DNA of 64,000 bases, from contig DATJAY010000035.1 of the NCBI GenBank assembly GCA_035515795.1, forward strand, positions 62,001-126,000, read 5' to 3'. The position numbers and the translations under genes were made by a program. This document shows, in pieces, positions 24,155 through 50,729 of the stretch. The notes under the pieces are model-generated. The model saw only the letters and a program-made list of their open reading frames with translations, was not told where the DNA came from and searched no databases. The number at the start of each line of letters is the position of its first letter. The first letter of the stretch is position 1. The stretch comes from Candidatus Acidiferrales bacterium (GTDB taxonomy: Bacteria; Bacteroidota; Ignavibacteria; Kryptoniales; JAKASW01).

Positions 24155-26968
24155 TCAGTGCGCATCCAGCCAGTTCGGTCCCGTGCCGACCTCGACATCA
24201 ACAGGCACACTCAGCTTCATTGCAGTTTTCATCCTGTCGGTTACAAGCTTTTCCAGTTCCTTCACTTCGCTCTTTGGCGACTCGAAAACCAATTCGTCAT
24301 GCACTTGCAGTAACATCCGCGATTTCATGTCCTTCTTCTTCATCTCGTGGTGGATTGCGATCATGGCAAGCTTGATCATGTCTGCGGCGGTTCCCTGTAT
24401 CGGCATGTTGATCGCCTGTCTCTCTTCAGCCATTCTCACGGCAGAATTTTTGCTGTTGATGTTGGCGAGGTACCGGCGTCTTCCGAGAAGCGTCTCGACG
24501 TATCCATGCTTGCGCGCAAATTCAAGCGTACTGTTTATATATTCACGAACCCGCGGGAATCTCCGAAAATATGTATCGATCACGTCCTTGGCTTCACCCT
24601 GCGAAATTCCCAGACGAATTTTTAATCCATACGGACCGATCCCGTACAGCAGCCCGAAGTTTACTTCCTTCGCTTTGCGGCGCATATCGGAAGTGACCTC
24701 GTCGGTGGGAACGCCGAACACTTTTGAAGCTGTAGTCCGGTGGATATCTTCGTGCTTATTGAACGCGTCGATCAAGCCTTCGTCTTTGCAGATGTGTGCC
24801 ATGATACGAAGCTCGATCTGCGAATAGTCAGCAGAAACCATCACCCACCCCTTTTCACCCGGCACAAACGCTTTCCTGATTTCCTTTCCCATCTCACCCC
24901 GAATGGGAATGTTTTGCAGGTTTGGATCTGCGGAGCTGAGTCTTCCGGTAGCCGCCACCGTTTGATTGAACGAAGTGTGGACTCTTCCGGTCCGCGGATT
25001 TATCAAAGTCGGAAGCACATCTACGTATGTCGATTTCAGCTTCGTCACTTTTCTATAGGTGAGAATTTTCTCCGCAATCGGATGCTCTGCGCCCAACTCT
25101 TCGAGCACGAAAACGTCTGTCGAATATCCTGTTTTTGTTTTCTTAGTAGGGGCTATCTTCATCTTCTTGAACAAGATTTCTCCGAGCTGCTTTGGAGAAT
25201 TAATGTTGAATTCTTCGCCGGCAAGTTTGTAGACCTCGTCACCAAGGTTTTCGATCATTCGTTCCAGCTCTTTCGAAATTTGCCCGAGTATCTCCGTATC
25301 GATCTTCACGCCGGTTCTCTCCACCTCCGCAAGAACCTCGATCAGTGGAAATTCCACCTTTTCGCACAGGCCAAGCAGATTTGATTTCTCCAATTTCTTC
25401 TGGAGAACATCTCTCAGCTGCAATGCAACATCGGCATCTTCGCCCGAATATTCCGCGACCACTTCCGGCGAAACCTCGCTCATGTTTATTTGATTTTTCC
25501 CTTTGCCGATCAGCTCCTCGATCGCTATCGGCTTGTATCCCAGATATTCTTTCGCGAGCGCGTCGAGGTTGTGCTGTCCGTCCGGACTAACGACATATGC
25601 TGCAACCATGGAATCGAAAGCAACTCCCTGAGTCGTGACGCCATAGTTGGAAAGTATCAGCATATCGTATTTCAAATTCTGTCCGACCTTTTTGATCTTT
25701 GACGATTCAAAAATTGGCTTCAATAATTTGACAGCATCTTTGACGCTGACACCACGTCTGGCCTCACCGCCCGAGAAGAGATCCCCGCCGTCGGAGGCTA
25801 CGCTGACATAATATGCCTCGCGCGGCTTTACCGACAAAGAAATCCCCACCAAATCGGCAAGAAGAGCGTTCGTCCCTGTCGTCTCCGTATCCATCGAGAC
25901 GAACTCCGACTTCTTCAATTTCTCCACCAACTTTTGAAGATCGGATAAATCGGTTATGAGCTTGTATGAATGCTTGACACTTGATACATCTTTATAATTT
26001 CCATCCTCGAACCGGACTTCAGTAACTGAAGGTTCACCTGCGGTTTCCTTTTCCTCCTCTGCCGGTTCTTTTGTCTTCTCCGACGGTGCAGGAATCATTT
26101 GCTGTGCCCTCTTGATGAGCGAGCGAAATTCCAGCTCATTGAAAATCTTTGTGACCTCAGCACCGTCGGTATTTTTTTCTTTTAGCGAATGAAAATCGAC
26201 GCCGAGCGGCACGTCCGTTTTTATCGTGACCAATTTCTTCGAGAGAAGTGCCATATTCTTTCCTTGCTTCAACTTTTCCTGAAGAGCCGGCTTTTCAATC
26301 TTGTCTGCACTCGCCAGTAATTTCTCCAGCGTGCCATATTGTTGAATCAAGGGAATTGCCGTCTTATCGCCGATCCCTTTGATGCCGGGGACATTGTCCA
26401 CCGCGTCGCCCGTCAACGCCATAACATCGATCACCTGCGACGGCTTCACTCCGAATTTTTTCTCGACACCCTTTTCATCGACTATCTCGACCTCCATCCC
26501 GCTCTTTCCCGGCTTATACATTTTTATTCTCGGAGTTACAAGCTGCATAAAGTCTTTGTCACCCGTCACCATGAAGACATCGATGTTTTCCTTTGCGGCA
26601 AGCTGTGCAAGCGTTCCGATGAGGTCGTCGGCTTCATAGCCTGCCTTTTCAAGTGTCGGCACACCGAAAGCGTTCAGCATTCTCTTTATATGCGCCAACT
26701 GGCCGATCATCTCTTCAGGCATCTTTTCTCGAGTGGCTTTGTATTCCGGATATTCTTTGTGGCGGAACGTCGGTTCGCCCGTATCGAAGACGGCCACCAG
26801 GTAATCCGGCTTTTCATCGCCTATAATTTTCATCAGATAATTTGCAAAGCCGAACGCCGCGCTCGTGTTCTGGCCTTTCGAATTGATGAGGGGGTGGCTG
26901 ATCATCGCGAAATATGCGCGATAAGCGAGTGCTGTTCCGTCGAGTATAAAAAATCTTTTTGCGGCCAC
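24155..26968 (-). CDS. polA: DNA polymerase I
   Basis: 937 residues, full length for the family. Three parts: 5'-3' flap exonuclease (residues 1-290, ILDGTALAYRAYFA, VTGDKDFMQLV, GIKGIGDKTA); 3'-5' proofreading exonuclease with an intact FVSMDTETTG motif; family A polymerase with DYSQIELRIMAH, RRKAKEVNFGLLYGIG and LLQVHDELVFE. The enzyme fills gaps and removes RNA primers. The start is a GTG at 26968 with AGGAG a few bases upstream. A hairpin shared with tpiA and the histidine kinase gene sits just before that ribosome site (26987-27010). Confidence 0.97.
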   Translation of the reverse strand: MAAKRFFILDGTALAYRAYFAMISHPLINSKGQNTSAAFGFANYLMKIIGDEKPDYLVAVFDTGEPTFRHKEYPEYKATREKMPEEMIGQLAHIKRMLNAFGVPTLEKAGYEADDLIGTLAQLAAKENIDVFMVTGDKDFMQLVTPRIKMYKPGKSGMEVEIVDEKGVEKKFGVKPSQVIDVMALTGDAVDNVPGIKGIGDKTAIPLIQQYGTLEKLLASADKIEKPALQEKLKQGKNMALLSKKLVTIKTDVPLGVDFHSLKEKNTDGAEVTKIFNELEFRSLIKRAQQMIPAPSEKTKEPAEEEKETAGEPSVTEVRFEDGNYKDVSSVKHSYKLITDLSDLQKLVEKLKKSEFVSMDTETTGTNALLADLVGISLSVKPREAYYVSVASDGGDLFSGGEARRGVSVKDAVKLLKPIFESSKIKKVGQNLKYDMLILSNYGVTTQGVAFDSMVAAYVVSPDGQHNLDALAKEYLGYKPIAIEELIGKGKNQINMSEVSPEVVAEYSGEDADVALQLRDVLQKKLEKSNLLGLCEKVEFPLIEVLAEVERTGVKIDTEILGQISKELERMIENLGDEVYKLAGEEFNINSPKQLGEILFKKMKIAPTKKTKTGYSTDVFVLEELGAEHPIAEKILTYRKVTKLKSTYVDVLPTLINPRTGRVHTSFNQTVAATGRLSSADPNLQNIPIRGEMGKEIRKAFVPGEKGWVMVSADYSQIELRIMAHICKDEGLIDAFNKHEDIHRTTASKVFGVPTDEVTSDMRRKAKEVNFGLLYGIGPYGLKIRLGISQGEAKDVIDTYFRRFPRVREYINSTLEFARKHGYVETLLGRRRYLANINSKNSAVRMAEERQAINMPIQGTAADMIKLAMIAIHHEMKKKDMKSRMLLQVHDELVFESPKSEVKELEKLVTDRMKTAMKLSVPVDVEVGTGPNWLDAH

Positions 26969-26986
26969 TGGAAACTCCTGTTTTCA

Positions 26987-27010
26987 GCCAAAGGCTGATG
27001 CGCCTCTGGC
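26987..27010 (-). promoter_or_regulatory. 5'-leader hairpin copy 1 (upstream of polA)
   Basis: Read on the minus strand, GCCAGAGGC-GCATCA-GCCTTTGGC forms nine pairs around a six-base loop, ending 18 bases before the polA GTG. The copy upstream of tpiA is almost identical in sequence, and base differences between copies keep the pairing. Confidence 0.6.
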
Positions 27011-27108
27011 GCAGAATCAATTTAGCAAAGATTGCGATTCAGTGGAAGCCAAGCACAGTTTGAACTTAACACAACTCTAATCTATCTTAAAACAAAAAAG
27101 GAGGACTG

Positions 27109-30425: not shown

Positions 30426-32705
30426 CTAGGATAGTCGTTGGGATGTGTCGGCTCTATTCAAAGATGCCTCCTCGGGATCCTTGACGTTCGGTAATTTATA
30501 CTCAGGTAAATATACCACCACGGTTGTCCCGACTCCTTGAGTGCTGTCTACCCAGATGGCACCGCCGTGAAGTTCCACGAACTTTTTGGTCAGAGCGAGT
30601 CCAAGCCCGGTTCCGCCATTGTCGCCGCCTAGTTGAACGAAAGGTTTGAACAATTTGTCAAGATCATCTCTTTTAATCCCGATTCCATTATCTATAACCT
30701 TTATCTCTATCCCGTCGGCAGATTTCACCGCCTCAAGTTTTACGATATCATTTTCGCAGCTGAAGGTGATCGCATTGTTTAAAAGGTTATAAAGTATCTG
30801 CTTGAATTTTACCTGGTCCGCGACGAGCGTACTCAGCCCTTCTTCAAGTTTTACCTCCAGTTGAATTTGCTTCCTGTCGAGCATCGGCTTTAAAATTCTC
30901 CTGATGCTTTCTACAACCTCGGAAATGGAAAACTCCTGCGGATCCAGCTTCATTTTGCCCGTTTCGACCTTTGCAAGATCAAGAATGTCGTTTATCAGAC
31001 TCAACAAGTGATCTCCTGCGGTCACAATGTTGCCACTGAATTCATTAAGAAGTTCATGTGAAAGTTCCGGCGACTCGTCGTGGATGATATTTGCAAAACC
31101 GATAATTGAATTGAGCGGCGTCCGTATTTCATGGCTCATGTTCGCCAGGAATTCCGATTTGGAGCGATTCGCTTTGTCCGCCCGTTCCGCTTCCGACGCT
31201 ACTTTTGCTATCTGAAAACGAATGTCGTTGACTTCTCTCTTAATCAACTCGTGGGCTTCCAATATTTTTGTTCCGGCAATAATAAGTTCGACCTCCTCCT
31301 CGCTCGGTCGCAGAGCAATGAGTGCCCCGGTGACCGCATCCTGATGCCTCATCGGAATAACCAAGTAACCCTGATAGTTTATGAGGTCGCGAGACGGCAA
31401 ATCTTCAAAAATAAGCTGCGGAATATTTATGACAAACCCGGCCCTCTCCGTCAAATGGAAGGAGGATGAATCCTCATTTTTCTTTGCTAATGTTATCCCG
31501 TCGGATCGGGTTGCATCTCTTAATTCTTTGAGGTACGAGCGCATGTCGCCGGTTTTGAAAAGACGTTCCGCCGCGTTGATCAATTGACGATAAGACCAGA
31601 TCAAGAGTTGAGAATTTTCCACCGGTTCGAAAACGATCACAAGTGAATTCTCTTCGGCCTTCACGACAGTTAACTTTGCGCGCACTTTGATTCCGTCACG
31701 CCTCATGTAAAAGAAATCAGCCATGGAATGGAACGGCGGTGCAGGAGAGTCTTTCGCTCCGTCGGTTCTCAATGCCGTTGATAGAATCTCGTCGACTTCC
31801 TCCGACTGAGCATTTGAGCCGGCAAGGCCGAAAATCCTGTAGAAAGCTTTGTTGACAGTCGTAATCCTGAATTCCCTGTCGTGCTTATGATCATCTTTTT
31901 CTAAAACCACAACTCCAAGGTTGAGATCGTCGATGGCGCGGAAAAGAAGATTCTCCAGCTTCCCGTTTGTCGTGGAGACAATTTGATCAACCTCATTTGT
32001 AGAAAACAATGAGAATAATCCCTCGCCTATTTTCTGAATAACAACCCTCCGTAGTCTTTTCCCGTCATCTCCGTTCGGAAAAGTCTGAGAAATACTGTCT
32101 CTCTTCGATTCGATTAACTCAGAAACACTCTTGACCAATTCCGTCCCGGCCAACGTCTGAAAATCAAAGTCGAAGTTTTCATTCTTGAGAATTATTTTCC
32201 CTTTCTCATCAATAATGGCACACGGAATATCAGCACACTGGAAAGCGGTCTTTACAGTCTTACTCACCTTGTCGAGCAGGCATCTCGAAATCTTGTCCCG
32301 GACCAATTCCTGGATTTGCCAATGTTCGCTGTGTGACAGTGAAAAGTTTGTATGAAGTTCGACCCTGCACGAGAAGTCTTCATCATCCACCACGAATGCA
32401 AACGGTACGTCACTCTTATCAGTTTCGATTCCATCCCCATCTATCGTGGATGAAAAATCGCCGAAGATTTTCCCGTGTAATTCTATCTTTCCCTTTTTTG
32501 CATAATAAGCACTTGCCAATGAGGCCAAAATCTCATTCAAGGCTGTTTGGATAGGCAACCCGTTTATGATTCTAAGGCCGGCTACCGCTTTGATCCTTCT
32601 CGCGGCTTCTAATTCCGATTCAATCTTACTCTGTCTCTTGACATATCCGTAGACGAACGTGAGCAAGAGTGAAAGAGCGACGGAAATCAATAGAATTTCG
32701 TACAT
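30426..32705 (-). CDS. Membrane-anchored PAS/GAF sensor histidine kinase
   Basis: 759 residues. One N-terminal membrane helix is followed by a PAS-like segment near residues 180-220, a clearer PAS domain around 265-375, and a GAF-like region around 390-500. The HisKA domain has the phosphorylated His525 in ANMSHEIRTP, and the HATPase domain shows NLLNNAITFS, DNGIGIKRDDL and GGTGLGLAL. There is no fused receiver. The adjacent upstream gene encodes a degenerate receiver, and no DNA-binding regulator is next to it, so its output partner is unknown. A leader hairpin shared with polA and tpiA precedes the ribosome site. Confidence 0.92.
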   Translation of the reverse strand: MYEILLISVALSLLLTFVYGYVKRQSKIESELEAARRIKAVAGLRIINGLPIQTALNEILASLASAYYAKKGKIELHGKIFGDFSSTIDGDGIETDKSDVPFAFVVDDEDFSCRVELHTNFSLSHSEHWQIQELVRDKISRCLLDKVSKTVKTAFQCADIPCAIIDEKGKIILKNENFDFDFQTLAGTELVKSVSELIESKRDSISQTFPNGDDGKRLRRVVIQKIGEGLFSLFSTNEVDQIVSTTNGKLENLLFRAIDDLNLGVVVLEKDDHKHDREFRITTVNKAFYRIFGLAGSNAQSEEVDEILSTALRTDGAKDSPAPPFHSMADFFYMRRDGIKVRAKLTVVKAEENSLVIVFEPVENSQLLIWSYRQLINAAERLFKTGDMRSYLKELRDATRSDGITLAKKNEDSSSFHLTERAGFVINIPQLIFEDLPSRDLINYQGYLVIPMRHQDAVTGALIALRPSEEEVELIIAGTKILEAHELIKREVNDIRFQIAKVASEAERADKANRSKSEFLANMSHEIRTPLNSIIGFANIIHDESPELSHELLNEFSGNIVTAGDHLLSLINDILDLAKVETGKMKLDPQEFSISEVVESIRRILKPMLDRKQIQLEVKLEEGLSTLVADQVKFKQILYNLLNNAITFSCENDIVKLEAVKSADGIEIKVIDNGIGIKRDDLDKLFKPFVQLGGDNGGTGLGLALTKKFVELHGGAIWVDSTQGVGTTVVVYLPEYKLPNVKDPEEASLNRADTSQRLS

Positions 32706-32721
32706 GTTTCGCCTCCTCTAC

Positions 32722-32745
32722 GCCAAAGGCACATCTGCCCTCGGC
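32722..32745 (-). promoter_or_regulatory. 5'-leader hairpin copy 3 (upstream of histidine kinase)
   Basis: On the minus strand GCCGAGGGC-AGATGT-GCCTTTGGC forms nine pairs (some G-U) with a six-base loop, 16 bases before the kinase ATG and just ahead of its GAGGAGG ribosome site. It is the most divergent of three copies. Confidence 0.5.
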
Positions 32746-32757
32746 TAAATGTTCAGT

Positions 32758-35706: not shown

Positions 35707-36036
35707 TTACGCCGCCTCAAGCTCCGCTGCAGCTTTCGCAACGGTTTGAAAAAAAGTTTCAAGCGGACACCCAAAACTGTCTACCGCATAGCAATAACCG
35801 GATTCATTTTTCTCACCGCACACGGGGCATACTTCGGTTCTCAGCGAGACCAAATAATCATTCACACTCGCACCGCGAGCAGTCTCAAGCGCCTTCGCTA
35901 CTTGAGGTAGATAGCGCTCAAGCACACACTCCGTTCCAGGAGAAGCGATGCATTTCCCATTTGCGTCGCTCTTTGAACATTCTTTGCAAACCTTCAGCCG
36001 GATATCGTCGATGAATTGGAAATCAATTTTCGACAT
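35707..36036 (-). CDS. Twin four-cysteine-motif protein next to ccmF
   Basis: 109 residues made of two clear repeats. Each has the pattern C-x2-C-x8-C-x7-C: CKEC...GKC...TEC in the first half and CPVC...GYC...FGC in the second, each followed by a similar helix (VAKALE and VAKAAAELE). Such spacing suits two zinc or iron-sulfur sites; the metal is not known. The ATG at 36036 follows GAGGTGGAGA and overlaps the end of the ccmF gene by 14 bases, so the two are coupled. That points to a role around cytochrome c or its substrates, but this is inference. Confidence 0.75.
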   Translation of the reverse strand: MSKIDFQFIDDIRLKVCKECSKSDANGKCIASPGTECVLERYLPQVAKALETARGASVNDYLVSLRTEVCPVCGEKNESGYCYAVDSFGCPLETFFQTVAKAAAELEAA

Positions 36037-38437
36037 TCTCCACCTCAACTTCCTTCGAACCCATCTCTTCGATCGTCAAAATAGTTTCGGATCTCTTCGC
36101 AACATTGTGAAGATTTTGGTCCCGCATCGGGATACCGGAAACCGAACGCGGGATTTTCCCCTCGGCGAAACGCCTGTACATCGAAATCGCAAGCCCGACA
36201 AAGAGAAGAATCGTACCAGCCCATAAGAAACCGATAAGAGGTTTCTTGCTCACTTCTACGGTCAAAACAGGCAGACTTACACTCTGTACCATGTCAACTG
36301 AATGAACAGCCAGCCTCACACTAGCCGTGCCGTTAGCCCCGCCCATACCGACGTTCATATCCATGACGATCAGCATGTTACCAAAAGCCTGTGCGGGGAC
36401 GGCATTCTCTTTCCCGTTTACAAAATTCAATTCAGGAGAGATCTCGATTGTCTTTCCATTCTTTGATGCATCAATGAGTGACGCAACCATGAAATTGCCG
36501 CCCTGCTGCATTGCGTCATGGCCAGCCGAGTTCATGTCAAACCGCACGAGAATAAGCTGCGTGCCATCATCAAGTTTTACCTGCTTGCCCTTTTGGAGCA
36601 CTACGATCTTCACGGCGCCAGTACTTGTTGAAGCGGCACCTCCATTGTCAACCGCCAACGGACTGACATATAAATCATAACCGAAATAGCTTTTTATGTC
36701 CGGTTCACGCATCGTCCCTTGGCTGTAATAGCTGTAGTACATCGCAGGCTTTAAGTTCGCCTCGGTGCTTCCGTTCCGAAGGTGTACCATGAAAGCGTCC
36801 TTGCCTTCGACTTTTGCATTATGGGCATATGTTATCTCATTGCCAAAGACGCTCACGGGCTTTCCCTGCTGAAGCTGGACAGTCGTTTTCGATTCAAGAG
36901 CGGTTGAAGCGATGATGCCGATGAACATGAGCGCTAGGCCAGCATGCGTTACAGGTCCCCCGATGTATTTAGGATTCCCGCGAACTATTCTCACCGCGGC
37001 AGCGAAGTGCGCCACGAAGGCGAATGCTGCGGCGCTCATTATGAGAATGACAGTCGCGTCCTTCACTGAAAGCGACAGCGCCGCAATCGCCGTGAGTGTT
37101 GCTGCGGCAACAGGCAAAGTAAGGTTTTTTAGGAAAACTTTTCTATCGGAATGGTCCCACCAGACAAGCTGGGCAAATCCGATCAATGCAATTATAAGGA
37201 GCCCGAGCGGGAGGCTTGTCGTCACGTAGTATGAGGAATTAACCGCAGTTGGTTTTCCCTGGAGCAGTCCAGTGATTATGGGAGAGGAGGTTCCTACGAG
37301 GGCGAAAAGCGACAGCACAGAGAGGGAAGCTGCGCCTACGAACATTGCGATTTCTCGTGACAACAAATTGTGGCTTACCCCCGCGCCCGGGATTGAAACT
37401 CTGTTCCTGAAGAACGGAATCAGGCCGAGCAGCAGAAATACACCTATCAAAACTAAAAGAATTGCGTAAACACTTTTTCCCGGATCGACGAATGCATGAA
37501 CCGAGGTATCTCCAAGCACTCCGCTGCGAGTCAAGAAAGTGCTGTAGAGGACCAAAATGAAACTTATGATTGTTAATGAGAAACTTGTCTTAATAAAACT
37601 ATTTGTTCTCTTCCCCACGATGATCGTGTGAAGAGCAGCGGAGGAAAACAGCCATGGTATCAGCGAAGAATTCTCAACCGGGTCCCATCCCCAGAATCCT
37701 CCCCAGCCGAGCGTCACGTATGCCCAGTAACCGCCTATGATTATCCCGGCCCCGAGCGTCAACACATTGAAAAGCAACCACGGCCGCAAGTAAGTCATCC
37801 AGTTGACATAATCTTTCCTGATTAATCCGGTCACCGCAAAAGCGAACGGAATGATCGCCGATGCAAACCCAAGAAACAAAATCGGTGGATGAATCACTAT
37901 CCAGAAATTTTGCAGAAGCGGATTCAATCCTCGGCCATCCTGCGGCATCATCCCAAACTGAACGTCGGAATAAGATTCCCAGACTTTCGCAAATGGACTC
38001 TTCAGGGTCAAGATTGCCAAAACAAAAATCTCGAAGAGAAGAATAATCGGGATGACAATCGATTCATACCGACCTCTTCTCTGCGCAATATCCGCATCGA
38101 CTCTTAGCTGAGAATACCTCAGGACGAAAACGCTGATCACCGCGCTATAGAAGATCCAGAGGATAAAACTTCCCTCCTGTCCGGCATAAGACGCCGAGAG
38201 CAAAAGTGGAATCGAGAGATCGTTCGAACTATAACTCCAGACATAAGTATATTGATACTGATGCGACAAAATCAGGAAAATGAAATAACAGTATAGAACC
38301 ATAATCGAAAGGACGTTGACATAGAAAAACAAACGTGCCGGTCGAAGAAAGTTCTGCGATTTCTCAGACAGTCGATAATAAACAATGCTTGCGACTGCGG
38401 CGAGCAGCGGTATAATTGTTATGTACTGTTCCATCAC
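36023..38437 (-). CDS. ccmF: CcmF/NrfE-type heme lyase for cytochrome c biogenesis
   Basis: 804 residues with many membrane helices. The WWD heme-handling motif reads WGGFWGWDPVENSS, and nearby histidines (HPPILFLGF, LHTIIVGK, TSVHAF) fit the heme ligands of the family. A large periplasmic part occupies the C-terminal region (about residues 500-740). CcmF attaches heme to apocytochrome c. Other Ccm genes are not adjacent, so the system is dispersed or reduced. It starts near 38437 and overlaps the downstream twin four-cysteine gene. Confidence 0.92.
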   Translation of the reverse strand: MMEQYITIIPLLAAVASIVYYRLSEKSQNFLRPARLFFYVNVLSIMVLYCYFIFLILSHQYQYTYVWSYSSNDLSIPLLLSASYAGQEGSFILWIFYSAVISVFVLRYSQLRVDADIAQRRGRYESIVIPIILLFEIFVLAILTLKSPFAKVWESYSDVQFGMMPQDGRGLNPLLQNFWIVIHPPILFLGFASAIIPFAFAVTGLIRKDYVNWMTYLRPWLLFNVLTLGAGIIIGGYWAYVTLGWGGFWGWDPVENSSLIPWLFSSAALHTIIVGKRTNSFIKTSFSLTIISFILVLYSTFLTRSGVLGDTSVHAFVDPGKSVYAILLVLIGVFLLLGLIPFFRNRVSIPGAGVSHNLLSREIAMFVGAASLSVLSLFALVGTSSPIITGLLQGKPTAVNSSYYVTTSLPLGLLIIALIGFAQLVWWDHSDRKVFLKNLTLPVAAATLTAIAALSLSVKDATVILIMSAAAFAFVAHFAAAVRIVRGNPKYIGGPVTHAGLALMFIGIIASTALESKTTVQLQQGKPVSVFGNEITYAHNAKVEGKDAFMVHLRNGSTEANLKPAMYYSYYSQGTMREPDIKSYFGYDLYVSPLAVDNGGAASTSTGAVKIVVLQKGKQVKLDDGTQLILVRFDMNSAGHDAMQQGGNFMVASLIDASKNGKTIEISPELNFVNGKENAVPAQAFGNMLIVMDMNVGMGGANGTASVRLAVHSVDMVQSVSLPVLTVEVSKKPLIGFLWAGTILLFVGLAISMYRRFAEGKIPRSVSGIPMRDQNLHNVAKRSETILTIEEMGSKEVEVENVEN

Positions 38438-49758: not shown

Positions 49759-49926
49759 TGTGCTTGCAAGGAGCTTGGTGACCGCTTAAATCACGATGCG
49801 GGACGAAGGATATCGAACAAAGCGATAAATGCAGATCTTTGCGATGTTTGCGGTTAATTTTTTTATGCCCATTACTCTTCAATCAAAAACCATTTAACTT
49901 TAACTTCATTAACATTGACTAACTGC

Positions 49927-49950
49927 GCCGGAGGCGCATCAGCCTCTGGC
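49927..49950 (+). promoter_or_regulatory. 5'-leader hairpin copy 2 (upstream of tpiA)
   Basis: GCCGGAGGC-GCATCA-GCCTCTGGC pairs fully with one G-U, ending 11 bases before the tpiA ATG and immediately ahead of its AGAGGAAA ribosome site. Compared with the polA copy the arms differ at two places yet still pair, and the loop is identical. Confidence 0.6.
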
Positions 49951-49961
49951 AGAGAGGAAAC

Positions 49962-50729
49962 ATGAGAAAGAAAATTATAGCAGCAAATTGGAAAATGAAC
50001 AAAGATGTCAACGAAACATCCGAATTTTTTTCAGCGCTTCAAAAAGAACTGGATGGCTATAGTGGCACAGCGGAGATCGTGGTCTGTCCGCCGTTTACCG
50101 CCCTTCAGACTGCAGTCAAGGCTTCGCAGGGGACTTCATTTAAGGTTGGCGCACAAAATCTTCATTACGAAAACGACGGTGCATATACCGGCGAGATTTC
50201 AGCACGCATGATAAAATCGCTCGGAATTCCCTATGTCATCATCGGCCACTCCGAGCGCCGGCAGTACTTCGGCGAGACCGACGAAATCGTGGCAAAGAAA
50301 GTGAAGAAGGCCTTGAGCGAAGGTCTGAAAGTGATTCTTTGTGTTGGTGAGACGCTCAGCGAACGCGATGGAAACGTCACTGAAAAAGTTTTGGACCGGC
50401 AGGTGAAAGCGGCGCTCGACGGTTTGACCGCGGAGCAGTTGAAGTCGATCGTGATCGCATACGAGCCGGTCTGGGCGATTGGAACAGGACGCAACGCGAC
50501 GCCGCAACAAGCTCAAGAAGCCCATGCTTTCATCAGGAACCTCGTGTCAAAGCTGTTCGGCAACGGCGCCGCCCAGGATTTGACTATCCAATATGGTGGA
50601 AGCATGAAGCCGGAGAACTCCGGGGAGCTCTTATCCCAGGCGGATGTCGATGGCGGTCTCATCGGTGGTGCGAGCCTTAAAGCCGACTCATTCTCGAAGA
50701 TCGTTAAGAGCGCGCCGCCCGCAAAATAG
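49962..50729 (+). CDS. tpiA: Triosephosphate isomerase
   Basis: 255 residues. This TIM-barrel enzyme interconverts dihydroxyacetone phosphate and glyceraldehyde 3-phosphate. ANWKMNKDV holds the catalytic Lys, GHSERRQYFGE the His, and AYEPVWAIGTGRNATPQQAQEAH the Glu and mobile loop; QYGGSMKPENSGEL binds phosphate. The length is normal. No other glycolysis gene is adjacent. Confidence 0.98.
   Translation: MRKKIIAANWKMNKDVNETSEFFSALQKELDGYSGTAEIVVCPPFTALQTAVKASQGTSFKVGAQNLHYENDGAYTGEISARMIKSLGIPYVIIGHSERRQYFGETDEIVAKKVKKALSEGLKVILCVGETLSERDGNVTEKVLDRQVKAALDGLTAEQLKSIVIAYEPVWAIGTGRNATPQQAQEAHAFIRNLVSKLFGNGAAQDLTIQYGGSMKPENSGELLSQADVDGGLIGGASLKADSFSKIVKSAPPAK

Follow-up and report, generated by a model that had tools for sequence, protein, structure and literature searches.

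Introduction

Y1 transposases of the IS200/IS605 type recognize hairpins and insert single-stranded DNA beside a short motif without generating a target duplication. Short hairpin repeats are also known as double-hairpin elements from the organelle DNA of fungi and algae, where they have been proposed to be selfish and mobile. The same was proposed for short palindromic repeats of Volvox (PMC2670323). REPINs are inverted doublets of REP sequences featuring compensatory changes and two alternative folds, and they are thought to be moved as single-stranded DNA by RAYT dimers (PMC3116915), with REP transposases cutting at CT beside the hairpin (PMC8266576). Furthermore, CGTC-tagged REPs, to which the Rickettsia palindromic elements (RPEs) belong, were reported in Chlorobi and Bacteroidetes (definition from PMC3733652). 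Here, a 30-bp repeat with similarities to these systems is described, which was met in front of three genes of a Candidatus Acidiferrales bacterium.

Three Hairpins and the 30-bp Unit

The window, i.e., the whole stretch of 64,000 nucleotides analyzed from contig DATJAY010000035.1, features hairpins just ahead of the ribosome binding sites of polA (minus 26987-27010), the triose-phosphate isomerase gene (plus 49927-49950) and a sensor histidine kinase gene (minus 32722-32745). The first-pass annotation had reported these sites, and their coordinates, strands and nine base pairs were all confirmed: nine pairs, some of them G-U, with a six-base loop can be formed in each of the three copies, a Shine-Dalgarno sequence follows directly and the start codon lies 8-15 nt downstream. 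Six motif matches were found in the window at up to three mismatches, which are the three sites counted on both strands; this exceeds chance, as shuffled windows gave 0.23 matches on average and none of 100 shuffles reached six. Regarding the near-identity claimed for the polA and tpiA copies including their loop, GCATCA is indeed common to both, the loop of the kinase copy being AGATGT. The same strand sense of hairpin and gene, which had also been put forward, says little, since the reverse complement of the element gives almost the same sequence.

When three more bases on either side are included, the true unit proves to comprise 30 bp instead of 24, namely a pair of directly adjoining 15-nt palindromes, each of the form T-NN-GCC-NNN-GGC-NN-A. 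The same letters also give two tandem hairpins of 6 bp with 3-nt loops, whose inner letters together supply the nine-pair stem. The features concerned are listed below, a slash marking a junction.

24155..26968, minus: polA (DNA polymerase I), downstream of the first copy (NF004397 and TIGR00593)
26975..26983, minus: polA Shine-Dalgarno sequence AAACAGGAG, adjoining the insertion and kept in congeners
26984..27013, minus: twin-palindrome element of 30 bp ahead of polA, TGCGCCAGAGGCGCATCAGCCTTTGGCTGA (10 congener leaders and two pairwise alignments show a gap of exactly 30 bp)
26984..26998, minus: second mini-hairpin of the polA copy, TCAGCC-TTT-GGCTGA
26999..27013, minus: first mini-hairpin of the polA copy, TGCGCC-AGA-GGCGCA
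27019..27024, minus: TAAATT box upstream of the polA insertion, conserved in the congener alignment
30426..32705, minus: sensor histidine kinase gene
32719..32748, minus: degenerate copy of 30 bp separating the kinase gene from a small ORF (G004 TTGAATTTC/GAGGAGGC; pairwise gaps 27 and 2)
49924..49953, plus: 30-bp copy in the tpiA leader, TGCGCCGGAGGCGCATCAGCCTCTGGCAGA (empty site in G004 with an aligned gap of 29; absent in 11 congeners)
49962..50729, plus: tpiA (triose-phosphate isomerase; TIGR00419)

The TAAATT box is a possible promoter element; a promoter and terminator scan at polA returned nothing, including no sigma-70-type match at this box.

Empty Sites and Insertion Junctions

The polA leaders of congeners align as TAAATT...C/AAACAGGAG (or AAAGAGGAG), and the leader of the genome under study equals this arrangement plus exactly 30 bp, TGCGCCAGAGGCGCATCAGCCTTTGGCTGA, between the C and AAACAGGAG; the gap has exactly this size in 10 congeners. 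Likewise, the tpiA leaders of 11 congeners are devoid of the element, and the kinase leader of the congener G004 reads TTGAATTTC/GAGGAGGC where the genome under study has its degenerate copy, with no hairpin at that place in any other congener aligned. Further empty alleles were sought by joining the flanks of copies minus the 30 bp and searching the collected loci with them. This yielded gaps of exactly 30 bp for G012:C123 compared with G002 and for G004:C75 compared with G011. A gene of G004 whose N-terminus is cyclic-nucleotide-binding-like and whose C-terminus is that of a histidine kinase exceeds its closest orthologues by exactly 30 in-frame bases. In addition, an nrfE/ccmF-like gene of the genome under study includes the element within 33 extra bases, which are missing in 10 of 11 congeners and in seven genomes of the same order. 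The gaps thus measure 27-33 bp at tpiA, the window kinase and the nrfE/ccmF-like gene, and exactly 30 bp at polA and three other loci. The window copies are lineage-specific 30-bp insertions of a REP-like twin palindrome. One copy of G002 is common to G012, so that some copies are inherited.

Two observations concern the nrfE/ccmF-like genes. The eleventh congener (G011, L215) shows a different in-frame 30-bp insertion without palindromes in the same linker. Besides, the window itself contains a second nrfE/ccmF-like gene (36023-38437, minus strand), which is about 50% identical to the C33 gene and inside which no 30-bp element was found.

The empty-allele alignments display a plain 30-bp gap without visible target-site duplication, and a MITE with target-site duplication was rejected on the grounds that no direct duplication flanks the insertions. 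Taking both ends of the copies together, T occupies position -2 in 71 and C position -1 in 68 of 120 flanks. The favored junction is YTC/T...A/GAR, with C/T as its commonest form. A palindromic target, i.e., YTC at both ends of one copy, is not supported, as the two ends behave independently.

Covariation and the Two Folds

The word "covarying" in the first-pass annotation is not supported for the nine-pair stem across 60 genus copies with flanks. At the variable pairs of the mini-hairpins (two per hairpin), Watson-Crick pairing occurs in 46-55 of the 60 copies compared with 25-27 after shuffling, whereas in the long stem the three positions that vary give no pairing signal (p = 0.77, 0.12, and 0.68). 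For the mini-hairpins, 88 two-sided cells were counted versus 39 in shuffled data, with a covariation score of 0.292 versus 0.089 that was reached by none of 500 shuffles; the independent pair count agrees with this first covariation test, and the nine-pair stem scores 0.054 versus 0.058 shuffled. The invariance of the other core columns is uninformative because the search pattern fixed them. All 12 mini-hairpin pairs are formed by 40 of the 60 copies, all nine long-stem pairs by nine. What these data show is a constraint on the two mini-hairpins.

The two-hairpin fold is predicted to be more stable than the long stem in 39 of 60 copies as RNA and in 46 as DNA. For the three window copies the RNA prediction is the nine-pair stem (-17.8 to -19.8 kcal/mol), while the polA copy as single-stranded DNA is predicted to adopt two hairpins. 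With the element the polA stretch folds at -20.6 kcal/mol, without it at -2.3 kcal/mol. An additional outer stem around the twin hairpin, giving a three-way junction, was rejected, since true flanks pair no better than shuffled ones.

Distribution in Genome, Genus and Class

Genome-wide counts are based on pattern searches, for which the twin unit was written as GCCNNNGGC-NN-AT-NN-GCCNNNGGC and the reversed pattern served as control. The 4.08-Mb genome under study has seven exact twin copies; across the genus, 10 of 13 genomes together have 61, compared with two forward matches of the reversed pattern. Allowing one mismatch, the genome under study holds 13 copies versus two in the control, and the single unit TSMGCCNNNGGCKSA occurs 30 times versus once. 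Class-wide, 309 copies were found in 56 of 294 genomes from many families, with 1-31 per carrier and none for the reversed control, a patchiness that is typical of mobile or easily lost elements. Exact 24-mers are also present in MAGs labeled Ignavibacteriales, Bacteroidetes and a few others, and a 1-kb stretch of the genome under study is 67% identical to an Ignavibacteriales record, which together suggest a Bacteroidota/Ignavibacteria-like lineage.

With respect to genes, 15 of 60 copies are located inside coding DNA, a few of them resting on weak calls of the simple heuristic dicodon caller used, although 86% of the sequence is coding; copies are accordingly depleted in genes. Intergenic copies fit the space available in each orientation class (codirectional, divergent, convergent). 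Among the intergenic copies, neither gene starts (nine copies nearby versus 6.4 expected, p = 0.12) nor gene stops (eight versus 5.7 expected) are significantly preferred; small positional biases may be missed due to the heuristic caller. The proposal that the repeat settles before ribosome sites is not general. Genus-wide, copies occupy codirectional, divergent, convergent and coding DNA and do not significantly prefer gene starts, which is the kind of distribution named beforehand as speaking against a leader element. Translation of the coding copies is almost confined to two of the three frames, giving PxADxPLA-like or SAxGxSASGG-like peptides, which suggests that only tolerated coding insertions survive.

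Copies within one genome are rarely identical, so that there is no sign of one active master copy. In G011, about 100 bp around the element are roughly 90% identical among four loci (L105, L107, L109, and L113), and the element therefore rides in a larger dispersed repeat there. Carriage by phages or plasmids was considered and rejected: blastn gave no match, and a search of 2.9 million viral contigs returned only 13 stretches. Two loci adjoin stable RNA genes. In the genome under study, a copy with one mismatch is found immediately beyond the tmRNA 3' end (L137, C36:28899) and adjoins an apparent partial duplicate of this end, and in G011 three copies are arranged in a 75-bp tandem repeat directly 3' of a tRNA gene (L111, C41:7435-7608).

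Relation to Y1 Transposases and Described Repeats

Y1 transposases are present in 53 of 56 carrier genomes compared with 178 of the 238 remaining ones (p = 0.0005, with no correction for phylogeny). At the level of individual genomes and loci, G081 (99% complete) has 11 copies and G003 two copies with no Y1 match in either, copy number and Y1 number are uncorrelated within the genus (rho 0.02), and at 29 of 30 Y1 loci of the genus an exact single unit is absent over a distance of about 1.5 kb. The sole exception is contig C16 of the genome under study, where five single units surround one Y1 gene that is of the IS200 type and not a RAYT according to NCBIfam score. A general linkage to Y1 genes is not apparent, with single units at one locus of 30 and an IS200-type gene there. 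This locus (L168, C16:30909-32174) consists of the Y1 gene amid repeats of about 100 bp with three hairpins each; the middle hairpin frequently reads TCCGCCTCTGGCGGA, a single unit like those that make up the element, and in some repeats other palindromes replace it.

Compared with REPINs and BIMEs, the element likewise unites two inverted short palindromes with a long-hairpin and a two-hairpin fold, the former being formed in some copies only, and it is mostly extragenic, scattered regardless of genes and marked by compensatory changes (PMC3116915). It differs in its 0-nt spacer, its length of 30 bp, its copy number of at most tens per genome and the lack of consistent RAYT linkage. Both tags known from REPs are missing: GTAG occurs at one and CTAC at three of 120 element ends (control positions four and one), CGTC at two of 120, so that the ends qualify the element as neither GTAG-REP nor CGTC-REP. 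As for CGTC REPs and RPEs, short palindromes occurring as dimers, also inside ORFs, with no dedicated transposase known (PMC3733652) are shared traits, including in-frame copies inside ORFs, whereas stems of 6 bp and loops of 3 nt contrast with 8-9 bp and 4-5 nt in these repeats. The likeness to organelle double-hairpin and palindromic repeats is architectural only, as genomes and sequence differ. Insertion in the manner of IS200/IS605 would give the anatomy of the element (PMC8266576), which itself carries no transposase and whose Y1 association is only statistical. Altogether, the repeat is best regarded as a new element of REPIN- or RPE-like character that lacks both GTAG and CGTC tags.

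Possible Origins of the Hairpins

We consider it likely that the three sites belong to a mobile element of 30 bp that is dispersed and non-autonomous, an option that the first-pass annotation had included as a mobile repeat and that the empty sites in congeners support. Its other option, a shared 5'-UTR control element acting on polA, tpiA and the kinase in concert, either as an RNA hairpin or as a stem bound by protein, would explain why all three window copies precede start codons by 8-15 nt and why the nine-pair stem is their predicted RNA fold. Against it, congeners have no hairpin in the corresponding leaders of the three genes, the nine-pair stem does not covary, other copies are coding, divergent or 3' of genes, and no Rfam family applies, since a search at the sites gave nothing above gathering score and only tRNA and tmRNA neighbors. 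A listed RNA was rejected on this basis and, with neither orthologous conservation nor a covarying structure found, a shared control element is extremely improbable. Co-option of selfish insertions at some sites is compatible with the mobile-element explanation: transcription might start at or just before the element, its 5'-terminal hairpin protecting the mRNA or altering initiation. The polA insertion between the conserved TAAATT box and the Shine-Dalgarno sequence would suit this, as would the gain in folding energy there, but the kinase copy is flanked by two ORFs of the same direction and the window insertions are not conserved across species, hence giving no sign of selection to keep them; co-option is thus unlikely.

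Template switching or replication slippage, by which palindromes would arise de novo at quasi-palindromes without transposition, draws on the fact that copies differ mutually yet keep perfect arms. Palindrome correction by template switch yields such covariation without selection for mobility, which to this extent counts against the mobile-element reading. Still, exact 30-bp insertions of one GCC...GGC consensus at unrelated sites and empty alleles in which no quasi-palindromic precursor was seen render this origin very improbable. Within the mobile-element explanation, the mobilizer might be a RAYT-type transposase acting on a REP or REPIN sensu stricto. The inverted doublet with two alternative folds resembles REPINs (PMC3116915), the preferred C/T junction agrees with cutting at CT by TnpA-REP (PMC8266576), and Y1 genes are commoner in carriers; on the other hand, the ends lack GTAG and CGTC tags, Y1 or RAYT linkage is absent except for the single units round the IS200-type gene at C16, and the 30-bp unit has no spacer, so this assignment appears rather doubtful. 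A distinct minimal class of mobile DNA, namely an untagged 30-bp twin palindrome that inserts at YTC/RA without target duplication, whose ten-codon length permits spread through genes and whose mobilizer is other than a RAYT, is a possibility that we regard with some reserve.

In the preferred explanation, the dispersed mobile element consists of two abutting, oppositely oriented 15-nt palindromes, one of the GCC-NNA-GGC type followed by one of the GCC-TNN-GGC type, each of which can fold into a hairpin of 6 bp and a 3-nt loop in single-stranded DNA. It inserts cleanly between YTC and an RA/GA dinucleotide without target duplication, and a copy landing in a gene can add ten in-frame codons. 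The folded DNA would move after cutting at C^T junctions, as proposed for REPINs. The cutting enzyme may be a Y1 (HUH) transposase supplied in trans, a plausible and leading, albeit unproven, mobilizer because Y1 genes are commoner in carriers, but G081 has no Y1 match and copy number does not track Y1 number in the genus; we hold this step only tentatively. The location before ribosome sites in the window would follow incidentally from the junction preference and from the tolerance of spacers for insertions, as YTC/GAR may overlap the Shine-Dalgarno letters at the window copies, e.g., TTTC/GAGG in the kinase leader. Any effect on expression would be secondary.

Conclusion

The element is probably wandering, selfish DNA rather than a shared switch of gene control, and a regulatory reading of the hairpins is unlikely. 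Accordingly, caution is advisable, as hairpins repeated before ribosome sites can represent insertions rather than riboregulators. An apparent regulatory motif has become a documented case of tiny mobile DNA whose empty sites are resolved almost to the single base, while the mobility of REP-like repeats is otherwise mostly inferred from distribution. The element provides a 30-nt substrate together with a junction motif and candidate Y1 proteins for studying how such repeats move.
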